Both the position numbers and the translations under genes were made by a program. The notes under the pieces were generated by a model. That model was not told where the DNA came from and did no database searches. It saw only the letters and a list, made by a program, of their open reading frames with translations. DNA of 64,000 bases from Rubrivivax sp. (GTDB lineage: Bacteria > Pseudomonadota > Gammaproteobacteria > Burkholderiales > Burkholderiaceae_C), in NCBI GenBank assembly GCA_027484825.1, contig JAIXSE010000021.1, forward strand, positions 1 to 64,000, in the 5' to 3' direction. This document shows positions 3,218 to 58,186 of the stretch, one piece after another. How positions within the stretch are numbered: position 1 is the stretch's first letter; the number at the start of each line of letters is the position of its first letter.

Positions 3218-3666
3218 TGCTGGCGCGGGCGAGGGCGCTGCTGGCGGCGCTGTGGGCCGGTGAGCTGCTCACCGTGGCCTGGCTGGCGGCCCCCAATGCC
3301 TTTGCCACGCTGGAGCGCACCCAGGCCGGCCTGTATGTGGGCCGTCTCTTCGAGATGGATGCCCGCATCGCCCTGGCCGCCGGTGTCCTGCTGGTGATGA
3401 TGGAGCGGCGCCTGCAGCGGGATGGGCAGGTGGGCGGCTCCGTGATGGGCTGGGCCATGGTGCTGCCGCTGGTGGCGCTGTTCCTCACCGTGCTGGGCTA
3501 TTACGGCCTGCAGCCGCTGATGGAGTCGGCCAAGCAGGGGCTTGGGTCCTGGACCTTCCTGCAGCTGCATGCGGCCTCGATGGCGCTGTTTGCCCTGCGC
3601 ATGGTGGCGGTGGTGGTGCTGGCGTGGCGTGTGATGCCCAGGGGCGATGCCGCCAGGGCGCGCTGA
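3217..3666 (+). CDS. DUF4149 integral membrane protein
   Basis: A 149-residue hydrophobic protein with about four membrane helices, resembling the DUF4149 family of unknown function that follows greA in many betaproteobacteria. The ATG at 3217 overlaps the greA stop (TGATG); an in-frame GTG three bases earlier is possible but less likely. No catalytic motif is visible. Its co-transcription with greA looks conserved, but nothing here indicates a role. Confidence 0.85.
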   Translation: MLARARALLAALWAGELLTVAWLAAPNAFATLERTQAGLYVGRLFEMDARIALAAGVLLVMMERRLQRDGQVGGSVMGWAMVLPLVALFLTVLGYYGLQPLMESAKQGLGSWTFLQLHAASMALFALRMVAVVVLAWRVMPRGDAARAR

Positions 3667-3700
3667 AGTCACAGAAGCGCGCAGAATCTTCTGCACAAGC

Positions 3701-3734
3701 AAAAAAGGACGGTCATGGACCGTCCTTTTTTTTT
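3701..3734. terminator. Bidirectional intrinsic terminator between convergent genes
   Basis: GGACGGTC and GACCGTCC form a compact hairpin preceded by six A and followed by nine T, so it can end transcription in both directions. It separates the DUF4149 gene (plus) from yhbY (minus). Confidence 0.9.
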
Positions 3735-3756: not shown

Positions 3757-4233
3757 TCAGGAAGCGCTGGACTTCTTGACGCTGGTCTGGCGCGGCTTCT
3801 TGGCGCGCTTGATTTCCCCGCCCTGAGTCACGCGCTGGTTGCCCAGCACCTGGACCTTCTTGATCTGCGGGCGGTTGTTGCCGCTCTTGGAGAACTTGAC
3901 GATCTTGACCGTCTTGGGGGCGGGGCGGGCGTCCTCGCGCACCGCCTTTTCCTTCTCCGGCATCGGGCGCCACAGCACCAGCAGCTTGCCGATGTGCTGG
4001 ATGGGGGCGGCGTCCAGCGAGTCGGCCAGGGTGGCCAGGACGGCTTCGCGACCGTCACGGTCGTCGGACATGACACGCACCTTGATCAGGCCGTGGGCCT
4101 TCAGGGCGGCGTCCACTTCCTTGGTTACGGCCGGGGTGAGGCCGTCGGCGCCGATCATCACCACCGGATCCAGATGGTGGGCGTCGGCGCGTTTTTCCTT
4201 GCGCTGGGCAGGAGTCAGTTGAATAGCAGGCAT
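3757..4233 (-). CDS. yhbY: YhbY/CRS1-domain ribosome-assembly RNA-binding protein
   Basis: YhbY-family proteins associate with pre-50S particles. The protein starts [20 protein letters not shown] (ATG complement at 4231-4233), the usual family start; longer in-frame extensions were discarded because they would enter the divergent rlmE promoter region. Residues about 3-98 form the CRM fold, including the [12 protein letters not shown] loop. About 60 extra basic residues follow and probably bind RNA; many beta- and gammaproteobacterial homologues are shorter. It is divergent from rlmE, the arrangement seen in enterobacteria. Confidence 0.9.
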
Positions 4234-4410
4234 GGCGCGCATTATCCGTTGTCGGCGGCTTTCCGGTGCGGTGACAAGCCTCGGCAAGGGCGGTGCAGGG
4301 CGCCCGGGTCGTCGTGTGGTCACAACAGGGCAGGGCGTTCAGGCAAAATCGCGGTCCGTTGCATCGACGCCGGGTTCGGCGCCTGCAATCCCCGTATTGG
4401 CTTCCCCCTC

Positions 4411-5082
4411 ATGAAAATCGACACCAAAAGCAAGAAGGTCAACAAGGCGTGGCTGAATCAGCACGTGAATGACCCCTATGTCCGACTGGCCCAAAAAGAG
4501 GGGTTTCGCTCCCGCGCCGCCTACAAGCTCAAGGAAATCGATGAGGAATTCCAGCTGATACGTCCCGGGCAGGTGGTGGTGGATCTGGGGGCGTCGCCAG
4601 GCGCGTGGAGCCAGTACCTGCGCCGCCGTTTCGCGCCCAAGGAGGCGGGAGTGGGCGGGGCGGCTGCCGGGCAGCTCAACGGGCGCATCATCGCGCTGGA
4701 CCTGCTGGAGTTCGAGCCCATCGAAGGGGTCGAATTCATCCAGGGGGACTTCCGCGAAGACGAGGTGCTGGCCCAGCTGGAAGCCTCCCTGGGCGGTGCG
4801 CCGGTGGACCTGGTGGTGTCGGACATGGCGCCCAACCTCTCCGGCATCGCCGCCACCGACGCCGCCCGCATCGCCCACCTGATCGAGCTGGCGCTGGATT
4901 TCTCCGCGCGTCACCTCAAGCCCGAAGGGGCTTTGGTGGCCAAGGTATTCCACGGTGCGGGCTACGATGACCTGGTCAAAGCCTTCAAGGACCAGTTTCG
5001 GCGCGTCAAAACCGCCAAACCCAAGGCCTCGCGGGACAAATCCTCAGAAAACTTTCTGGTGGGCATTGGCCTGAAGCGCTGA
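4411..5082 (+). CDS. rlmE: 23S rRNA 2'-O-ribose U2552 methyltransferase RlmE (FtsJ/RrmJ)
   Basis: Methylates the ribose of U2552 in the 23S A-loop using S-adenosylmethionine. The start [20 protein letters not shown] gives 223 residues; an in-frame upstream extension to 3715 was rejected. The SAM-binding motif [15 protein letters not shown] is clear, and the K-D-K-E catalytic set is represented by [30 protein letters not shown] and SSENFLVG. A short Gly/Ala-rich insert (GVGGAAAG) after motif I explains the slightly larger size. It is upstream of ftsH as in E. coli. Confidence 0.95.
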
Positions 5083-15487: not shown

Positions 15488-16876
15488 ATGAGCTGGTTGT
15501 TGTCGCGAGTGCTGATGCTGGTGCTGGGCACCGGCATCGGCGGGTGGATCGGCTGGTGGCTGGGGCATTGGATGCTGGCGCCCCCGCTGGCGGCCGGTCT
15601 GGGGGCCGGCGTGGCCGTGTCGCTGATGGGGCTCTGGGATGCTGCCCGGGCACACCGTCTGGTGAACTGGCTGCGCGGCGATCAGGCGGAGGATGCGCCC
15701 CGGCTGGGCGGCATCTGGGGGGAAATCGCCTACCGGATGGAGCGGGGCCTGCGGGACCGCGAGCGCCGTTATGAGCGGGAACGCCAGCAGCTGGAGCAAT
15801 TCCTGCAGGCGATGGAAGCGTCGCCCAACGGGGTGATCCTGCTGGACGATCAAGACCAGATCCAGTGGTGCAACACCCTGGCGGCCGATCATTTCCAGCT
15901 GGATCCCCAGCGGGACAAGCTGCAGCGCATCACCAATCTGGTTCGATATCCTGCGTTCGTCTCTTATCTGCAGTCCCGGCAGTACAGCCATCCGCTGGCG
16001 CTGCAGAACTCGCGCGGCAAGGCGCATCTTCAAGTCTTGATGCGGGACTATGGCGTGGGCGGGGAATGTCGGCGGCTGATTCTGTCGCTGGACGTCACCG
16101 ACCGCGAGCGCAATGAATCGATGCGCCGGGACTTTGTGGCCAATGTGTCGCATGAGATCCGCACGCCGCTGACGGTGCTGTCGGGCTTCATCGAGACGAT
16201 GGCGAGCCTTCAGCTGACGGAGGCCGAGCGCAAGCGGGTGCTGCATCTGATGCAGCAACAGACGCAGCGCATGCAGACCCTGGTGGGTGACCTGCTCACG
16301 CTGGCGCAATTGGAAGGCAGCCCGCGTCCGGCGCCGGACCACTGGATTGGGCTGGATCCCTTGCTGGCGCGGATTGCCGCCGATGCGCGGGCGCTGTCGG
16401 CCGGGCGGCATGAGCTGGTCTGCGATCGTCTGACGCAGGTCGAGGTGGCGGGGGTGGAGACGGAGCTGCTCAGCGCCATTGCCAATCTGGTCAGCAATGC
16501 GGTGCGCTATACCCCGGAGGGCGGGCGCATCGAGGTGCATTGGCGCTGGCTGGGGGAGAAGGGCGGGGAGGTCTCGGTGGTGGACAACGGCCCGGGCATC
16601 GCGCGGGAACATCTGCCGCGGCTGACCGAGCGCTTTTATCGGGTGGACGGCAGTCGTTCACGCGATACGGGCGGCACGGGGCTGGGGCTGTCCATCGTCA
16701 AGCATGTGATCCAGCGCCATGGCGGCGAGCTGCGCATCGACAGCGAGCCCGGCAAGGGATCGGCCTTCCGGCTGCTGTTCCCGGCGACGCGTCTGCGGCT
16801 GGTGGATGCGCCGGCGATGGGGGAGGAATCCGCGCCGGCGATGCTGGCGTCACGCGAGGATGACGAGGCGGCCTGA
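15488..16876 (+). CDS. phoR: Phosphate regulon sensor histidine kinase PhoR
   Basis: Membrane histidine kinase that phosphorylates PhoB under phosphate limitation. The 462 residues show two N-terminal membrane helices without a large periplasmic domain, a PAS domain (about 95-200), HisKA with VSHEIRTPLTVLSGF (phospho-His), and an HATPase with VDNGPGI and TGGTGLGLSIVKHV. It starts 10 bases after phoB. The gene downstream is a nuclease remnant, not ppk or ppx. Confidence 0.95.
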   Translation: MSWLLSRVLMLVLGTGIGGWIGWWLGHWMLAPPLAAGLGAGVAVSLMGLWDAARAHRLVNWLRGDQAEDAPRLGGIWGEIAYRMERGLRDRERRYERERQQLEQFLQAMEASPNGVILLDDQDQIQWCNTLAADHFQLDPQRDKLQRITNLVRYPAFVSYLQSRQYSHPLALQNSRGKAHLQVLMRDYGVGGECRRLILSLDVTDRERNESMRRDFVANVSHEIRTPLTVLSGFIETMASLQLTEAERKRVLHLMQQQTQRMQTLVGDLLTLAQLEGSPRPAPDHWIGLDPLLARIAADARALSAGRHELVCDRLTQVEVAGVETELLSAIANLVSNAVRYTPEGGRIEVHWRWLGEKGGEVSVVDNGPGIAREHLPRLTERFYRVDGSRSRDTGGTGLGLSIVKHVIQRHGGELRIDSEPGKGSAFRLLFPATRLRLVDAPAMGEESAPAMLASREDDEAA

Positions 16877-28870: not shown

Positions 28871-28947
28871 CGGGGCGTAGCGCAGTCTGGTAGCGCATCT
28901 GCTTTGGGAGCAGAGGGTCGCGAGTTCGAATCCCGCCGCCCCGACCA
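28871..28947 (+). tRNA. tRNA-Pro (anticodon UGG)
   Basis: A 77-base cloverleaf: acceptor CGGGGCG pairs with CGCCCCG, anticodon stem TCTGC/GCAGA encloses TTTGGGA with anticodon TGG, T-loop TTCGAAT, and CCA is encoded. All stems pair. The prophage integrase lies 84 bases downstream, so the 3' part is the probable integration target. Confidence 0.97.
28905..28947. other. Probable attL (prophage junction in tRNA-Pro 3' end)
   Basis: Tyrosine integrases of tRNA-inserting phages recombine in the anticodon/T-arm to 3' end and rebuild the tRNA. The integrase beside the tRNA and the switch from host to phage genes place the junction here. The exact core cannot be set because the second copy (attR) is beyond 64000. 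Confidence 0.6.
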
Positions 28948-52665: not shown

Positions 52666-52939
52666 TTGTTGTGCCTATAGAGTCGGGGGAAGAATCACAT
52701 CGGCGGTGCCGAGGTTATTTAGATGCGGCGCAATCGAAGGTTATCCGAATATTGGTTGTGCTCAAAATCGCAAATGCATTTAGGGTCCGGGTTGACGTCA
52801 AGTAGTGACACCACCATAATGCTACCTGCGTCCCGCTACTCAATAAGACTGCATAAGGCCGAAGCGGCGGCCCCTGGATGGGAATCCAACACCTCGCTCT
52901 TCACTGAGACGAGGCCGAATTCCGTCATTGCGGGGCGCC

Positions 52940-53647
52940 ATGAGCATCACCGAAGAGCGATACGCGCGGGCCACCAGGTCCAGCCATCTTGAAGTCAACG
53001 CCGAGCAGCGCGGGGACATCGACACCATCATTGCAGCAGGCACCGCCGATTCGCTCGGCGTGATGCTCTGCCGCCTCCGCGCCGAGTTCGACGCGATCCA
53101 TCCCACCGAGGTGGCCCAGGCCGCCGACAGCCTGACCGCCCGTGTGCTGGTGCTGATGAACCTCCGCAGCCTGCGGACGGTCACAGAAGCGCTGATCGAG
53201 TTCTCCCTCACCCAGTCCCTGCGCCGCGGCGTTACCGATCCGGCGGCAGCCCCGCGGGCGGAGCTCAAGGCGCTCACCGCGAAGTTGGCGGAGCAGATGG
53301 AGCGCGAGGAGCGCTTCGCCCTGATCGCCGAGCATGCCGCCAAGTGCCGGGAGGTCGCTGACGCGGCCCTGGCCCACCGCGAGCGCGTCACGGCGATGGT
53401 CGGGAAGGTGGTGGACTTCTGGGTTGACCGCCTGTGCCACCACTGCGACGGCCGGGGCTTCAACGGCGGCCGCGGCAAGCCGCAGATCCTCTGCTCCCAT
53501 TGCAAGGGCACCCGCCACCGCCGCCGGCCCCAGCTCCACAAGGACCAGGACCTCCACGGCTTCGGCCTTTGGCTGCTGAACGTCATGGACTCCAAGGCCA
53601 ACGGCGCCATGGGGAAGATCAACCGCAAGACCCGGAGCTACGCATGA
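52940..53647 (+). CDS. Candidate Q-like late antiterminator
   Basis: ATG 52940 (MSITEERYARATRSSHLEVN) gives 235 residues. A double Cys motif, CHHCDGRGFNGG and CSHCKGTRHRR, resembles the zinc finger of phage Q antiterminators, and the gene lies after the nin genes, the Q position. The N-terminal two-thirds are helical. Antitermination is inferred from the finger, position and downstream terminators. Confidence 0.45.
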   Translation: MSITEERYARATRSSHLEVNAEQRGDIDTIIAAGTADSLGVMLCRLRAEFDAIHPTEVAQAADSLTARVLVLMNLRSLRTVTEALIEFSLTQSLRRGVTDPAAAPRAELKALTAKLAEQMEREERFALIAEHAAKCREVADAALAHRERVTAMVGKVVDFWVDRLCHHCDGRGFNGGRGKPQILCSHCKGTRHRRRPQLHKDQDLHGFGLWLLNVMDSKANGAMGKINRKTRSYA

Positions 53648-54062: not shown

Positions 54063-54238
54063 GGAGGCCCGGCGACCTCCCGGCCCAGGCCTTCGCCGCC
54101 TGCTTCTTCCTCACCATGATCCTGCTGGCCACTCCGGTGGTGGTGTTCCTGCTGCTGGCCGAGGGCTGGCGTGGACTGTCCTACCACTGGCACTGCAACT
54201 CTCAACGGAGGATGAATGACGAAATACCGCGTCGATGA
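54059..54238 (+). CDS. Small membrane protein (59 aa)
   Basis: MRRPGDLPAQAFAACFFLTM; one strong membrane helix (FFLTMILLATPVVVFLLLA). It overlaps the previous gene by ATGA and extends into the start of the next gene. Function unknown. Confidence 0.6.
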   Translation: MRRPGDLPAQAFAACFFLTMILLATPVVVFLLLAEGWRGLSYHWHCNSQRRMNDEIPRR

Positions 54239-54560
54239 ACTGGATGGTGAACTGCTTGACATGGCTGTTGCCCGAGCCGAGGGAATCGAAGGCTACGTGG
54301 CCGACGTCTACGGCCCTGGCAGCTTTTCGCGCAGCCTGGCAGCCGGAGGGGCAATCATTGAGCGTGAGGGGATCGCAACTTGGCGGGCTGGTGAGTCGTG
54401 GCGAGCAGCGGTCCCGGATGAGCCGGAGCATGGGTATTACCACCCAGGCAATGAAATCATTGACTGCGGCGGAAGCGATGGCATCAGCGGTCCGACTGCA
54501 ATCGTTGCAGCCATGCGTGCCTGGGTCTCATTCAAACTCGGTCCGGTAGTGGATCTCTGA
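54216..54560 (+). CDS. NinX/DUF2591 family phage protein
   Basis: MTKYRVDELDGELLDMAVAR with GGAIIEREGIATW and GPTAIVAAMRAWVSFKLGPV match the DUF2591/NinX layout; 114 residues. GGAGG precedes the ATG. Family function unknown. Confidence 0.85.
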   Translation: MTKYRVDELDGELLDMAVARAEGIEGYVADVYGPGSFSRSLAAGGAIIEREGIATWRAGESWRAAVPDEPEHGYYHPGNEIIDCGGSDGISGPTAIVAAMRAWVSFKLGPVVDL

Positions 54561-54683
54561 CGAAAACACCACAAACCCAACACGGCTTCCAATTCTTCCG
54601 TTAGACTTGGCGCACTAGACCGCCAACCATCGCCAATCAGCGTCTGTGACGCTCAATCCGGCCAGACCGGAAGCACCAGATGG

Positions 54684-54697
54684 TTAGGCACGCCTGA
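54684..54697. promoter_or_regulatory. Stray repressor-operator match
   Basis: TTAGGCACGCCTGA matches the first 12 bases of O_R1 (TTAGGCACGCCTAC) exactly, 13 kb away from the immunity region and inside the candidate RNA. Confidence 0.5.
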
Positions 54698-55142
54698 ACA
54701 CAAGGCTCGATAGCCTGGGCGGCGAAAGGTGCAAGTGTCACGCTCGCGTGGCAGTCGTAAGTCACTCGAATAACCGGCCCAGTGAGAGGGCGCTAATGGC
54801 AAGCTACTGGCCTGGCACTCCGGAAAGACGGGGACCTTCACACATGCCAATCGAAGCGAGCCGTGCACGAGCCGCTTTCGGCGCTGCGACCACTGAACCC
54901 GGCGCAGCAGTAACGCGATCCGAGTGATTCGGATGGGCCCGGTTGGCAGTTGTGAGGGTGAGGAACCTGAGGGCGCCTGCAGCGCCGTCCGGGGATTCTT
55001 CCTCGCAGAGAGGTATAGCCTGACCGCTGCTGGATCGTCTGTCCGGCGCCGATGGTGAATACGGTCTGACCGCGCCGCTACCTTGAGAAGGCGTGCGGGG
55101 ACTGACGAACTCCCCGCGCGCCAAGTGGTCGAAATACCCCCA

Positions 55143-55173
55143 AGCCCGCCCGGCTCATGCTCGGCGGGCTTTT
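55143..55173 (+). terminator. Strong terminator ending the candidate RNA
   Basis: AGCCCGCC (55143-55150) pairs with GGCGGGCT (55163-55170), followed by TTTT. Same logical place as the tR' terminator in lambda late transcription. Confidence 0.85.
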
Positions 55174-55175
55174 CT

Positions 55176-55707
55176 CATTCTGCGATCAACGGGGGAGAGC
55201 TCCCTGCGCCCAAAGGGCTTCGGCCTGAGTGAAACATGAGACTGCCCCCGCCCATGAGGGTGGGCCAAGGGGCGGCACAGAAGGGCACACAGTAACTCCC
55301 CCACCCAATCTGGTCCCCACACGCGGGCCGGAGACGCCATGACCTGCTGGTGGCGTCTGGCATCGACAGCAGGACCGGCTACCCAGGGCGACGCGTGCAG
55401 CCGGGCGCGCATTCTCCAGCCCGATCAAGTCGCACACGTACAGGCCTTGAACGCCGGGTGCCGGCAGGACCGCAGCAATGCGCATACCGCCGAACCAGCC
55501 CCGTCGAATGAGTCAGCGCCTCGCCTAGCGCAAACCAACCCTGCCGTAATGGCGCCGGATCGAGTAACCGGCATCCTCAAAGCCCGGCCGCGTGACCTCG
55601 CCATCCGCGCGCACTTCATGAATCGGTCGCTTGTCGGCCGGGCACCTCGTCTCCGCTATGGCCAGGACCTCCAGCGGTGAGCCGCCGCGACCAACTGAAA
55701 GCACCCG
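55176..55707. other. Gene-poor spacer before the late genes
   Basis: About 530 bases with no convincing gene. An 8-bp hairpin AGACGCCA/TGGCGTCT (55332-55339 with 55351-55358) is the clearest structure. A plus-strand frame from 55339 to 55680 has no protein-like features and was not called. It could be a second structured element or remnants of lost genes. Confidence 0.5.
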
Positions 55708-55998
55708 ATGAAGAATCGTCCTGTGTTCGTGATGTTCGCCGTGGCCGCCATGGCTGCTGCTGCCTCCGCCGTCCAGGTGGTGGCCACCTCCGTCCGCGCC
55801 GTGTACCGGCTGGCGATGGACTATCTGCGCTTCCGCGCCTTCGCTGCCGCGGCCGTGGACGTGGCTTCCAGAAAAGCCACGGTGGCCCATCTGGCCGCCC
55901 ACACCAAGCTGAAGGCAGCCTGCCGGTACCGGGCCCGCCAGGAGTGCCGCGACACCCCCACGCTCACCGACAGCTGGCGGATGTGTCCGAGCGTCTGA
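55708..55998 (+). CDS. Small membrane or exported phage protein (96 aa)
   Basis: MKNRPVFVMFAVAAMAAAAS is a hydrophobic start that could be a signal or anchor; the rest is Ala/Arg-rich helix with two Cys. There is no good ribosome-binding site. It lies directly before the terminase genes. Moderate confidence that it is a gene; function unknown. Confidence 0.55.
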   Translation: MKNRPVFVMFAVAAMAAAASAVQVVATSVRAVYRLAMDYLRFRAFAAAAVDVASRKATVAHLAAHTKLKAACRYRARQECRDTPTLTDSWRMCPSV

Positions 55999-56249
55999 CA
56001 TGTGAAGCAGGGCCGCCTCGTGCGGCTCTTTGCATTGGGCCCCACACGGACCCAGCGCAAAGGGAAGCGCCAGCATTCACCACTCAGCAGACCAGTGGCC
56101 GGCCAGGCGCAAATGTGGCCGGATAGCTCCCGCGATGCGCTGCCCGACGCGAAAGAAATCTGACTCGGCAGCGGAAGGCAGTCACCCAGCGGCGCAACAA
56201 GTGCCGTAAGTCCTCATGGGTGACACCAGTCCGAGGGAAGGGATCGGAC

Positions 56250-56870
56250 ATGACCGAAAAGCGAAAGATCGACTGGGAGGCCATCGAGGCTGACTGGCGA
56301 GCAGGGGTCAAGACGAAGCAGCAGATGTCGATCGAGCACGGAGTGTCCCGGGCCGCGATGGACAAGCGCTTCGCCAAGCTGGGGATCGAACGAGACCTCC
56401 GGGAGAAGATCCAGGCCAAGGCCGAAGCGCTGGTTACACAGGCTGAGGTTACAGCCAAAGTTACAGGCGCCACCAGTGCAACCGAAGCGGCCATCATTGA
56501 GGTGAACGCGACGGTGCTGGCTGGTGTCAGGCTGGCGCACCGAACGGACATTGCCCGCTTCCGCCGGCTCTGCCTGAGCATGCTGCAGGAGCTGGAAGCC
56601 GAGACCGCTGACCTGGACCTCTTCCGCGAGCTGGGCGACATGCTCAGGCGCGAGGACGACAAGGGCCAGGACAGAAGGAATGACCTCTACCAGAAGGTCA
56701 TCAGCAGCGCCGGCCGGATCGACAGCCTCAAGAAGCTGTCCGAGACGCTGAAGCATCTGATCACCCTTGAGCGTGAGGCTTACGGGATCGCAGCGGTCGA
56801 AGACAAACCGGCAGGTGGTGATGACATGGTGGCCACGCTGTCCAAGCTGATTGAGAAGCTGCCGGGATGA
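56250..56870 (+). CDS. Terminase small subunit
   Basis: MTEKRKIDWEAIEADWRAGV with an HTH (KQQMSIEHGVSRAAMDKRFA) and a long helical second half fits small terminase subunits that recognise packaging sites. 206 residues; the stop overlaps the large subunit by ATGA. Confidence 0.85.
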   Translation: MTEKRKIDWEAIEADWRAGVKTKQQMSIEHGVSRAAMDKRFAKLGIERDLREKIQAKAEALVTQAEVTAKVTGATSATEAAIIEVNATVLAGVRLAHRTDIARFRRLCLSMLQELEAETADLDLFRELGDMLRREDDKGQDRRNDLYQKVISSAGRIDSLKKLSETLKHLITLEREAYGIAAVEDKPAGGDDMVATLSKLIEKLPG

Positions 56871-58186
56871 GCACGGGAAACCTGCTGCTCGATCGGCAGT
56901 TGGCCCGCTGGTACGAACTGAAGGATCACCCGGTCCAACTGGCCCTGATTGAAGCTGTTCCCAACGGGGTGCGGTTTCCGCTGGTGCCAGCCGGCCGCCG
57001 AAGCGGCAAGACCGAGCGGTTCAAGCGTTTCCTGGTGAAGCAGGCCAATCGCGTGCCGGGCCCGTACTTCGCGGCGGCGCCTACGCACGATCAGGCCAAG
57101 AAGATCTTCTGGGATGACCTGAAGGCCTTCTCACTCTCCTGCCTGCACCCGCGGCGGCCCAGCGAGTCGGATCGGATCATCTTCCTCCCCAACGGGAGCG
57201 AGATCCATGTGATCGGGCTGGACAAGCCGCAGCGGATCGAAGGTATCCCGTGGAAGGGCGGGGGGATTGACGAGTTCGCGGACGTGAAGCCGGACGCATG
57301 GGAGGCCAACATCCTCCCGGCGCTGAACACGGTCAACCCGCTGGACCCTGACTATCGCGCCTGGTGCTGGTTGCTGGGCGTGCCGGACGGGCTGAACCAC
57401 TACTACGACCTGTGCTCCAAGGCGGAGACGGGCGTTGATCCAGCCTTCCAGGTCTTCCACTGGAAGTCGGCCGAAATCCTGCCTCCCGATGTGATGGCCG
57501 CCATGAAGCGGGCCATGTCGGAGAAGCAGTTCAAGCAGGAATTCGAGGCTTCATTCGAGACGGCCGGCGGCCGAATCTATGAGGACTACTCGAAGGAGAA
57601 CCACACGAGCGAGCGCATCCTGCCTCACGAGCAGCTCATGTGGATGCATGACCAGAACTACACCCCTCTGTCCTCGGCGGTGGGGGTTCGGCGTGGTGAA
57701 AGCCTGTTCCTGCTGGATGAGATCGTGCTGACCAGTGCGGTGTCGAAGCAGTCGGCGCAGGAGTTCGTGGAGAAGTTCAAGGACCACAAGAATCGCAACG
57801 TCCTGATCTATGGCGATCCCGCTGGCCAGGCTGGCGAGAAGCACGGCCATGCATCGGACTACACCGACATTGAGGGCGTGCTCCGGGCTCACGGCTGGAC
57901 CTACACCCGCAAGGTGCGTCCCGCCCACCCGGCGATCAAGGACCGACAGAACGCGGTCCGCGCCAAGATCAAGACGGCAGACGGCCAGCGGTCGCTGTTC
58001 GTCAACCCAGTCACAGCGAAGTGGTGTGACAAGGGCCTCGCAACGGTCCAGCTCCAGGAAGGCTCCACCTTCCAAGAGGACCAGAAGAACAAGTATCAGC
58101 ACATCACGACCGCAATCGGCTACTGCGTAGACCGTGAATGGCCGTGCATCCGCCGCACCGCAACGGTCGGTGAACTCCGGATTTAG
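56867..58186 (+). CDS. Terminase large subunit (packaging ATPase/nuclease)
   Basis: Pumps DNA into the procapsid and cuts it. The 439 residues have Walker A PAGRRSGKT, Walker B GGGIDEFADV, and a C-terminal nuclease region (IYGDPAGQAGEKHGHASDYT, with acidic residues). The family's usual length. It is coupled to the small subunit and followed by the portal gene. Confidence 0.95.
   Translation: MSTGNLLLDRQLARWYELKDHPVQLALIEAVPNGVRFPLVPAGRRSGKTERFKRFLVKQANRVPGPYFAAAPTHDQAKKIFWDDLKAFSLSCLHPRRPSESDRIIFLPNGSEIHVIGLDKPQRIEGIPWKGGGIDEFADVKPDAWEANILPALNTVNPLDPDYRAWCWLLGVPDGLNHYYDLCSKAETGVDPAFQVFHWKSAEILPPDVMAAMKRAMSEKQFKQEFEASFETAGGRIYEDYSKENHTSERILPHEQLMWMHDQNYTPLSSAVGVRRGESLFLLDEIVLTSAVSKQSAQEFVEKFKDHKNRNVLIYGDPAGQAGEKHGHASDYTDIEGVLRAHGWTYTRKVRPAHPAIKDRQNAVRAKIKTADGQRSLFVNPVTAKWCDKGLATVQLQEGSTFQEDQKNKYQHITTAIGYCVDREWPCIRRTATVGELRI

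Follow-up and report, generated by a model that had tools for sequence, protein, structure and literature searches.

Sequence analysis points to a modular family of structured phage RNAs upstream of the terminase genes of a Rubrivivax prophage

We analyzed a 64,000-nt stretch of DNA from Rubrivivax sp. (contig JAIXSE010000021.1), hereafter referred to as the window, in which a prophage carries a gene-poor region ahead of its late genes. The candidate RNA, its parts, and the protein genes of the window named below lie on the + strand. The last gene upstream of the region belongs to the NinX family (54216..54560; PF10765, P22 NinX family), and the small and large terminase subunits are encoded downstream at 56253..56870 and 56867..58186. 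Between them lies the candidate RNA (54565..55175), which spans ~600 nt with approximate ends; the coordinates first proposed for it are correct, the upstream gene stopping at 54560. A preliminary description placed a terminator directly before the late genes. The terminator is present, but the gene-poor stretch runs on past 55175, given that the terminase genes start only at 56253. Within this remainder, a clear counterpart of the frame at 55708-55998 exists in the close relative described below. A consensus scan of 54400-56300 found no sigma-70-like promoter, and we note that host promoters may differ from the consensus.

Among 16 genomes of the genus, a DNA-level match was obtained only in the window's own genome and in one other, G011 (locus L005; loci carrying related sequences are given L numbers throughout). 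The G011 counterpart sits at the equivalent place and has a similar length from a shared 5′ piece to the terminator, with a diverged middle. When six-frame peptides of 54561-55180 were compared to the homologous G011 stretch, no conserved reading frame was seen. The best of the matches (E 3e-7 to 6e-5) fall without exception on the conserved terminator, in several frames and on both strands, and the next is a 15-residue match (E 7e-4) in the 5′ piece, which is conserved as DNA. A conserved frame had been named in advance as grounds for rejecting an RNA; its absence favors one and agrees with the initial impression that these ~600 bases hold no credible gene.

The stretch had also been described as rich in hairpins, and its predicted folding is far better than that of shuffled sequence: the minimum free energy of 54565-55175 is -272.2 kcal/mol, compared to a shuffle mean of -240.2 kcal/mol (sd 5.5, n=20; z -5.8), with 0 of 20 shuffles as good. 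By direct reading, two hairpins are apparent in the 5′ domain. The first, AGCGTC-TGT-GACGCT (54639..54653), is found in G011 with a loop change; the second, TCCGG-CCAGA-CCGGA (54657..54671), reads GCCGG-CAAGT-CCGGC in G011, which amounts to one compensatory pair in a comparison of two sequences only. At the 3′ end, our own scan located an intrinsic terminator, GCCCGCC-(12)-GGCGGGC-TTTT (55144..55173), that is near-identical in G011. Its 7-bp stem is all G+C (55144-55150 with 55163-55169) and is followed by TTTTCT (to 55175), which bears out the strong terminator claimed for this end. A consensus terminator scan with a loop limit of 8 reported no terminator in this region of the window, the actual loop being 12.

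Three observations concern the DNA 3′ of the RNA. The segments 55136-55310 and 55539-55647 are 95-96% identical to G011 though the RNA itself has diverged, and they may represent a packaging site or another conserved element. A hairpin at 55554-55572, GCCGG-ATCGAGTAA-CCGGC, is built like hairpin C of the related RNAs (see below); G011 has it too, with 1-2 bases changed in its vicinity, as does L171 ahead of its terminase gene. Right before the terminase genes, a conserved block at ~56075-56140 contains CAGTGGCCGGCCAGGCGCAAATGTGGCCGGATAGCTCCC; it is kept in G011 and diverged in L172.

The core of the RNA (54813-54961) consists of a hairpin of the form GRCA-N5-GARAGA-N5′-ACC, which we call HP-A, and a long helix, P2, that closes in UGAUGG-UGA. 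This arrangement recurs in dozens of phage contigs. HP-A of the window is GGCA-CTCCG-GAAAGA-CGGGG-ACC (54814..54836), and P2 is formed by a 5′ arm at 54835..54853 and a 3′ arm at 54940..54958, which is followed by UGA. The internal-loop form of the helix in the window, CACACAUG / CAGUUGUG, is also that of L035, L077, and L092. Between the arms, the insert is freely exchanged among copies, which carry either simple hairpins or tRNA-like folds. The GGA loops suggested a CsrA sponge, a reading that we set aside because the conserved HP-A loop with its flanks is longer than the CsrA GGA motif.

Using the best-conserved middle piece as the query, we retrieved 62 IMG/VR stretches, and a looser pattern (GRCA-N4-GGARAGAC-N4-AYCNTCA) retrieved 66. 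This pattern makes no demand on pairing, apart from one pair that it fixes, and the full 5-pair HP-A stem is present in 56 of 61 distinct matches; 44 of the 61 have a P2 score of at least 20. A wider collection comprises 89 distinct complete hairpins, of which 56 reach a P2 score of at least 20 and 33 lack a strong P2. In the corresponding control with shuffled downstream sequence, best scores average 12.3, and at least 1 of 20 shuffles reached 20 in 29 of the 89 loci.

From the 56 distinct copies that reach this P2 score, we aligned 42 (alignment A2) and left out 14 for long inserts, near copies, odd arms, or a position near the locus end. In A2, 97.1% of cells are paired compared to 69.2% after shuffling, a percentage inflated by the choice of rows for a complete HP-A and a good P2. 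The alignment contains 203 double-change cells, compared to 55.0 in shuffled alignments and at most 51 in slid controls, and its covariation is 0.736, compared to 0.197 for shuffles and at most 0.162 when the partner is slid by 1-3 columns. Within HP-A, two-sided changes are seen at 4 of the 5 pairs. G-U cells (30) far outnumber A-C cells (7; other mismatches, 16), as they do in a further count (27 and 4), which argues for an RNA and for the + strand. A terminator is found downstream in the sense orientation, within 350 nt, in 12 of 47 copies; the antisense downstream count is 1, and the upstream counts are 0 and 2.

These data bear on two explanations that involve no functional RNA. Inverted repeats acting at the DNA level in packaging, recombination, or protein binding would suit a location upstream of terminase genes, but the excess of G-U over A-C pairs on the + strand, terminators that are mostly downstream and in sense (12 of 47 copies compared to 1, 0, and 2), and related copies away from terminase genes make such an element very improbable. 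Decaying intergenic sequence that folds by chance, to which the low identity to G011 in the middle of the RNA might point, deserves practically no credence in view of the z score of -5.8, the covariation, and the match to a covariance model.

This model, R2, was built from 40 copies without the window or G011, and it matches 54813-54961 of the window at 65.3 bits (E 3.5e-16) and G011 at 58.7 bits. A second model, R1, gives 72 bits for the window, which is part of its training set along with G011, Xanthomonas phage FoX2 (L121), and L115. Some circularity remains, as the window and G011 were the original source of the HP-A search pattern, though not of P2. The window contains both defining elements of the HP-A/P2 family, the GRCA-5bp-GARAGA-5bp-ACC hairpin and a long P2 closed by UGA. 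At the level of sequence, we regard the core fold, the strand, the family, the terminator, the place between the nin genes and the terminase genes, and, for a related 3′ domain, the position between Q and holin in HK620 and HK633 as established, and 54565-55175 is almost certainly a structured RNA of a family that is not in Rfam.

In many copies, P2 and its UGA are followed by hairpin B (AUGCGC-AGGCUGAU-GCGC), a spacer, and hairpin C (GCCGG-AGAUCAGCA-CCGGC), after which CACCAUCA follows at once. The loops of hairpins B and C are complementary to each other. CACCAUCA is complementary to UGAUGGUG, the strand from which the base of P2 is made as well, so that the helix resulting from this pairing, P3, would compete with the P2 base. 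An exact 8-base P3 complement lies within 270 bases downstream in 16 of 56 copies, compared to 0.28 expected from shuffles; 52 of these copies had been chosen only for HP-A and P2, and 4 for a model match. In 3 of the 16, the strand itself is changed (UGUUAGUG, UGAUGGUC, and UGUUGGUG). The exact partner is absent from 40 of the 56 copies, and a P3 search that allowed wobble pairs did no better than shuffles. Further changed P3 strands are UUGUGAUG/CAUCACAA in phage P1 and UGCAGAUG/CAUCUGCA in L197, and changed B/C loop pairs were found by the search without a loop condition (GGUGA/UCACC in L130 and UUGC/GCAA in L149).

For a second alignment (A3), 22 rows were picked by eye, 20 from the 42 rows of a loop-motif search and 2 from the 37 distinct rows of the search without a loop condition. 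Both searches required P3 (at least 7 of 8 pairs) and hairpin C pairing, and hairpin B was not required; the search without the loop condition gave 27 matches in shuffled sequence and is hence unspecific by itself. The 22 hand-picked copies contain 33 double-change cells, compared to 5.8 in shuffles and at most 11 in slid controls, an excess that overstates P3 and hairpin C because their pairing was a condition of the source searches. Covariation in homologs, which the preliminary description had proposed as a check, is thus found both in A2 (203 double changes compared to 55.0) and, with that reservation, in A3.

The 3′ domain of the window is divergent, and hairpins B and C were not recognized in it. 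The middle strand UGAGGGUG (54953..54960) would be common to P2 and the proposed P3, and a candidate 3′ strand of P3, UACCCCCA (55135..55142), makes 7 of 8 pairs, a weak match that, taken alone, is no better than chance. In G011 the 3′ domain is present: where the window has its P3 candidate, G011 shows hairpin C and a loop match of 4 bases. Energies were computed for 8 copies, and in 6 of them 0.1-2.6 kcal/mol separates P3 from the base of P2; larger gaps occur in L023 (6.3 kcal/mol, P3 favored) and in the window (5.8 kcal/mol, P2 favored).

That P2 and P3 have a strand in common suggests an exchange during or after transcription. Such an exchange could act in cis, in an antitermination or attenuation leader where it decides whether polymerase passes through the terminator into the late genes. 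The sense terminators downstream of 12 of 47 copies, the similar energies in 6 of 8 computed copies of two helices that use one strand, and the repetition of HP-A-like hairpins in one leader region of phage BUCT708 are what a leader of this kind would lead one to expect. On the other hand, no terminator is recognized within 350 nt in 35 of the 47 copies, some copies come after operons or adjoin tRNA genes, and P3 of the window is weak, and we consider a cis-acting role of this kind unlikely.

The distribution of the family is broader than late leaders. Of 50,697 phage records searched by blastn with the L044 RNA, 67 gave a match, in no case extending over 80% of the query, and the L115 RNA had no match in named phages. 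In HK620, the 3′ domain (16095-16186 of the record; L164 2998-3089) sits between the genes for Q and holin. It follows Q, the annotated pR′, and the annotated qut, and it precedes the late terminator annotated as tQ. HK633 has a related 3′ domain between its Q and holin genes; its leader is identical to that of HK620 over 1021 bases, and the two therefore count as one independent case. P1 carries two units, near tRNA-Asn and tRNA-Thr, Escherichia phage swi2 carries one adjoining tRNA-Met, and phage ep3 carries one that was seen by eye. The core in FoX2 is located near an annotated tRNA-Leu, after the tail genes, and Klebsiella phage ST11-OXA245phi3.2 matches R1 at 29.3 bits. R1 misses the copies in HK620, HK633, P1, swi2, Axy04, and ep3, which have the 3′ domain or other parts in common with the family, and not HP-A.

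With the window's own genome included, R1 matches were obtained in 11 of 399 genomes of the taxonomic family (E up to 0.001) and in 6 of 398 genomes of the phylum (E up to 1e-5); in the phylum set, 5 of 6 other matches are only 24-47 nt long and represent the hairpin without P2. Carriers include an Acidovorax contig of 213,638 bases. Among 58 IMG/VR loci with relatives of the terminase, 9 of which hold less than 1.5 kb upstream, R1 matches lie within 1.5 kb upstream in three (L192, L179, and, weakly, L183), and in L197 this upstream interval holds the 3′ domain. It follows that a position in a late leader, although common to the window, G011, and HK620, is not obligatory, since copies occur elsewhere (e.g., in L156) and few lie upstream of terminases.

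Several individual loci deserve mention. L156 contains two convergent units, at 3594-3720 (+) and 4045-4184 (-), after a gene of lysozyme-like appearance. In Stenotrophomonas phage BUCT708 (L122 5006-5580), several HP-A-like hairpins without P2 are present in one leader near regulator genes, and HP-A may accordingly work alone, perhaps as a protein site. In a Clostridia assembly (L133 6412-6558, -), HP-A directly precedes a tRNA-like stretch, 18 bases past a predicted frame. Four of the RNA-bearing contigs (L130, L109, L138, and L040) also contain, at another position, the Rfam motif Burkholderiales-2 (RF02917). A possible E. coli origin of L015 was checked, and no match was obtained.

A link to tRNAs is apparent in both the inserts and the surroundings of the related RNAs. 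Four P2 inserts exceed the Rfam tRNA score of 29, each in a match that spans ~120 nt (L017, 48.4 bits; L064, 44.9; L059, 43.0; L040, 40.9), and tRNA genes are located near the RNAs of P1, swi2, L081, L160, and L197. Overall, 5 of 55 copies have a tRNA gene no more than 1 kb away, compared to 29 of 1100 randomly chosen positions. In the close terminase relative L171 (85% identity), the stretch upstream of the terminase gene has tRNA-Thr, tRNA-Met, and tRNA-Asn instead of the RNA. The four inserts, the tRNA genes of L171, and the count around the 55 copies would suit a precursor that carries or releases tRNAs or tRNA-like decoys, with P2 as an extended acceptor stem, P3 freeing the leader for processing, and a window copy that has lost its tRNA. 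ARAGORN, however, called a tRNA in none of the four inserts; Rfam saw no tRNA in the insert of the window, whose sole tRNA is at 28871, or in the other scanned inserts; and HP-A and P2 are conserved even where no tRNA is present. A precursor function thus appears rather improbable to us. More generally, the tRNA-like inserts and the positions in tRNA islands favor a role with tRNAs or translation.

The preliminary description offered two readings of the locus, a discrete large phage RNA and a leader similar to lambda 6S RNA that is acted on by a Q-like protein. The first is strongly supported by the covariation in homologs, the strand bias of G-U over A-C pairs, the 3′ terminator, and the lack of any Rfam match apart from the distant tRNA. 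The second is supported indirectly, as regards a late leader. A related 3′ domain does lie between Q and holin genes in HK620 and HK633, and the window has the intrinsic 3′ terminator before the late genes (terminase from 56253) that characterizes lambda-type late leaders. As for Q, the candidate is a 239-aa protein with a CxxCxGxG zinc ribbon (52928..53647), whose matches to the PHROG family 'anti-termination protein Q-like' are weak only (E 0.18 and 1.3), as are those of its G011 counterpart (E 0.71 and 0.93). Pfam and NCBIfam each give a weak match to a DnaJ-type zinc ribbon. No tblastn match was found in phages, no relative by peptide patterns in IMG/VR, and no match to PDB sequences at E up to 1; AlphaFold on the single sequence gave a mean pLDDT of 48.2, too poor for a structure search. 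According to PMC7873438, lysogens transcribe the pR′-tR′ region, with termination, and in Stx phages a stable sRNA results. By analogy, we lean towards the RNA being a late leader that would exist as a free RNA in the lysogen.

Taken as a whole, 54565-55175 is probably a ~600-nt noncoding RNA gene that represents a modular family of phage RNAs in the window, and we extend this judgment to the following model of its action. The RNA would be transcribed from a promoter near its 5′ end. In the lysogen, transcription would stop at the terminator near 55170-55175, as in pR′-tR′ leaders, and a free structured RNA would accumulate; upon induction, antitermination or read-through would turn the RNA into the leader of the late mRNA. 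Less surely, P2 may form first, with P3 then invading its base and so opening or closing the P2 domain. Also less surely, the RNA could have a trans-acting role as a scaffold or a mimic of tRNA, in the manner of other phage tRNA-island RNAs, and we regard this part of the model as tentative.

We would put forward equally cautiously, as a speculation, that the family constitutes a widespread and undescribed phage RNA machine. In such a machine, a tRNA-like or otherwise exchangeable domain would be held by P2 and gated by the P3 exchange and a loop-loop pseudoknot; the RNA might be made abundantly in lysogens from the late promoter and, working in trans, target the translation or tRNA machinery of the host (e.g., as a decoy for tRNA-cutting defenses) or form RNA-only assemblies.

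Few large structured phage RNAs are known, and GOLLD and ROOL, which are also found near tRNA islands, are without a settled function. With units in a laboratory phage, P1, the question can be taken up directly in E. coli K-12, and part of the sequence that is annotated as empty late leader or tRNA island becomes an object open to probing.

With respect to known families, Rfam gave no gathering-score match in the window other than the tRNA, and at E up to 5 nothing for GOLLD or ROOL (presumably RF02032 and RF03087, respectively) was returned in 54400-56260, which indicates that the RNA is neither of these. A permissive search of the window returned sX13, Bp2_287, and two others, all far below their cut-offs. 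In the relatives (sets of 15 and 18 loci), only tRNAs and Burkholderiales-2 reached the gathering score, and a permissive search of L044 600-1200 gave no match. The judgment that the RNA could not be assigned to GOLLD, ROOL, or a known class is upheld by the Rfam search of the window, which matched none of them except for the distant tRNA. Hammerhead-like letters in L045 (~4300-4560), upstream of an HP-A unit, were discarded as a candidate; Rfam does not call a hammerhead. We found no prior description of an HP-A/P2 RNA in the open literature, and the family has apparently not yet been described, with the reservation that an earlier description may exist, as most subscription papers were outside the scope of the literature search.

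Among the systems that invite comparison, the lambda 6S RNA is a short late leader, and the HK022 put RNAs are structured phage RNAs upstream of terminators that decide polymerase read-through. Like the put RNAs, to which we liken it by description only, the RNA of the window is a structured phage RNA upstream of a terminator; unlike them, the HP-A/P2 family occupies a wider range of places. With the lambda 6S leader and the pR′-tR′ RNA that gives StxS, a processed Hfq-binding sRNA according to PMC7873438, it has in common a position between the presumptive late-promoter side and the terminator before the late genes, whereas it is several hundred nt long and structured and has relatives outside late leaders. 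GOLLD and ROOL are presented in PMC12286853 as large structured noncoding RNAs of phages and prophages that are often near tRNA islands, sometimes have tRNAs in a linker, and are of unknown function, and a role with tRNAs or translation is raised there for them as well. The HP-A/P2 RNAs resemble them as structured phage RNAs that in some cases lie near tRNA genes and sometimes have a tRNA-like fold inserted; they differ in having no Rfam match to these models in the window or the scanned relatives and in being built on a small core unit with an exchangeable insert and a strand shared by P2 and P3. Finally, as in phage tRNA islands, tRNA genes accompany the related RNAs of P1 and swi2 and precede the terminase gene of the close relative L171, but the parts that are conserved are HP-A, P2, and the loop-loop domain rather than a tRNA.
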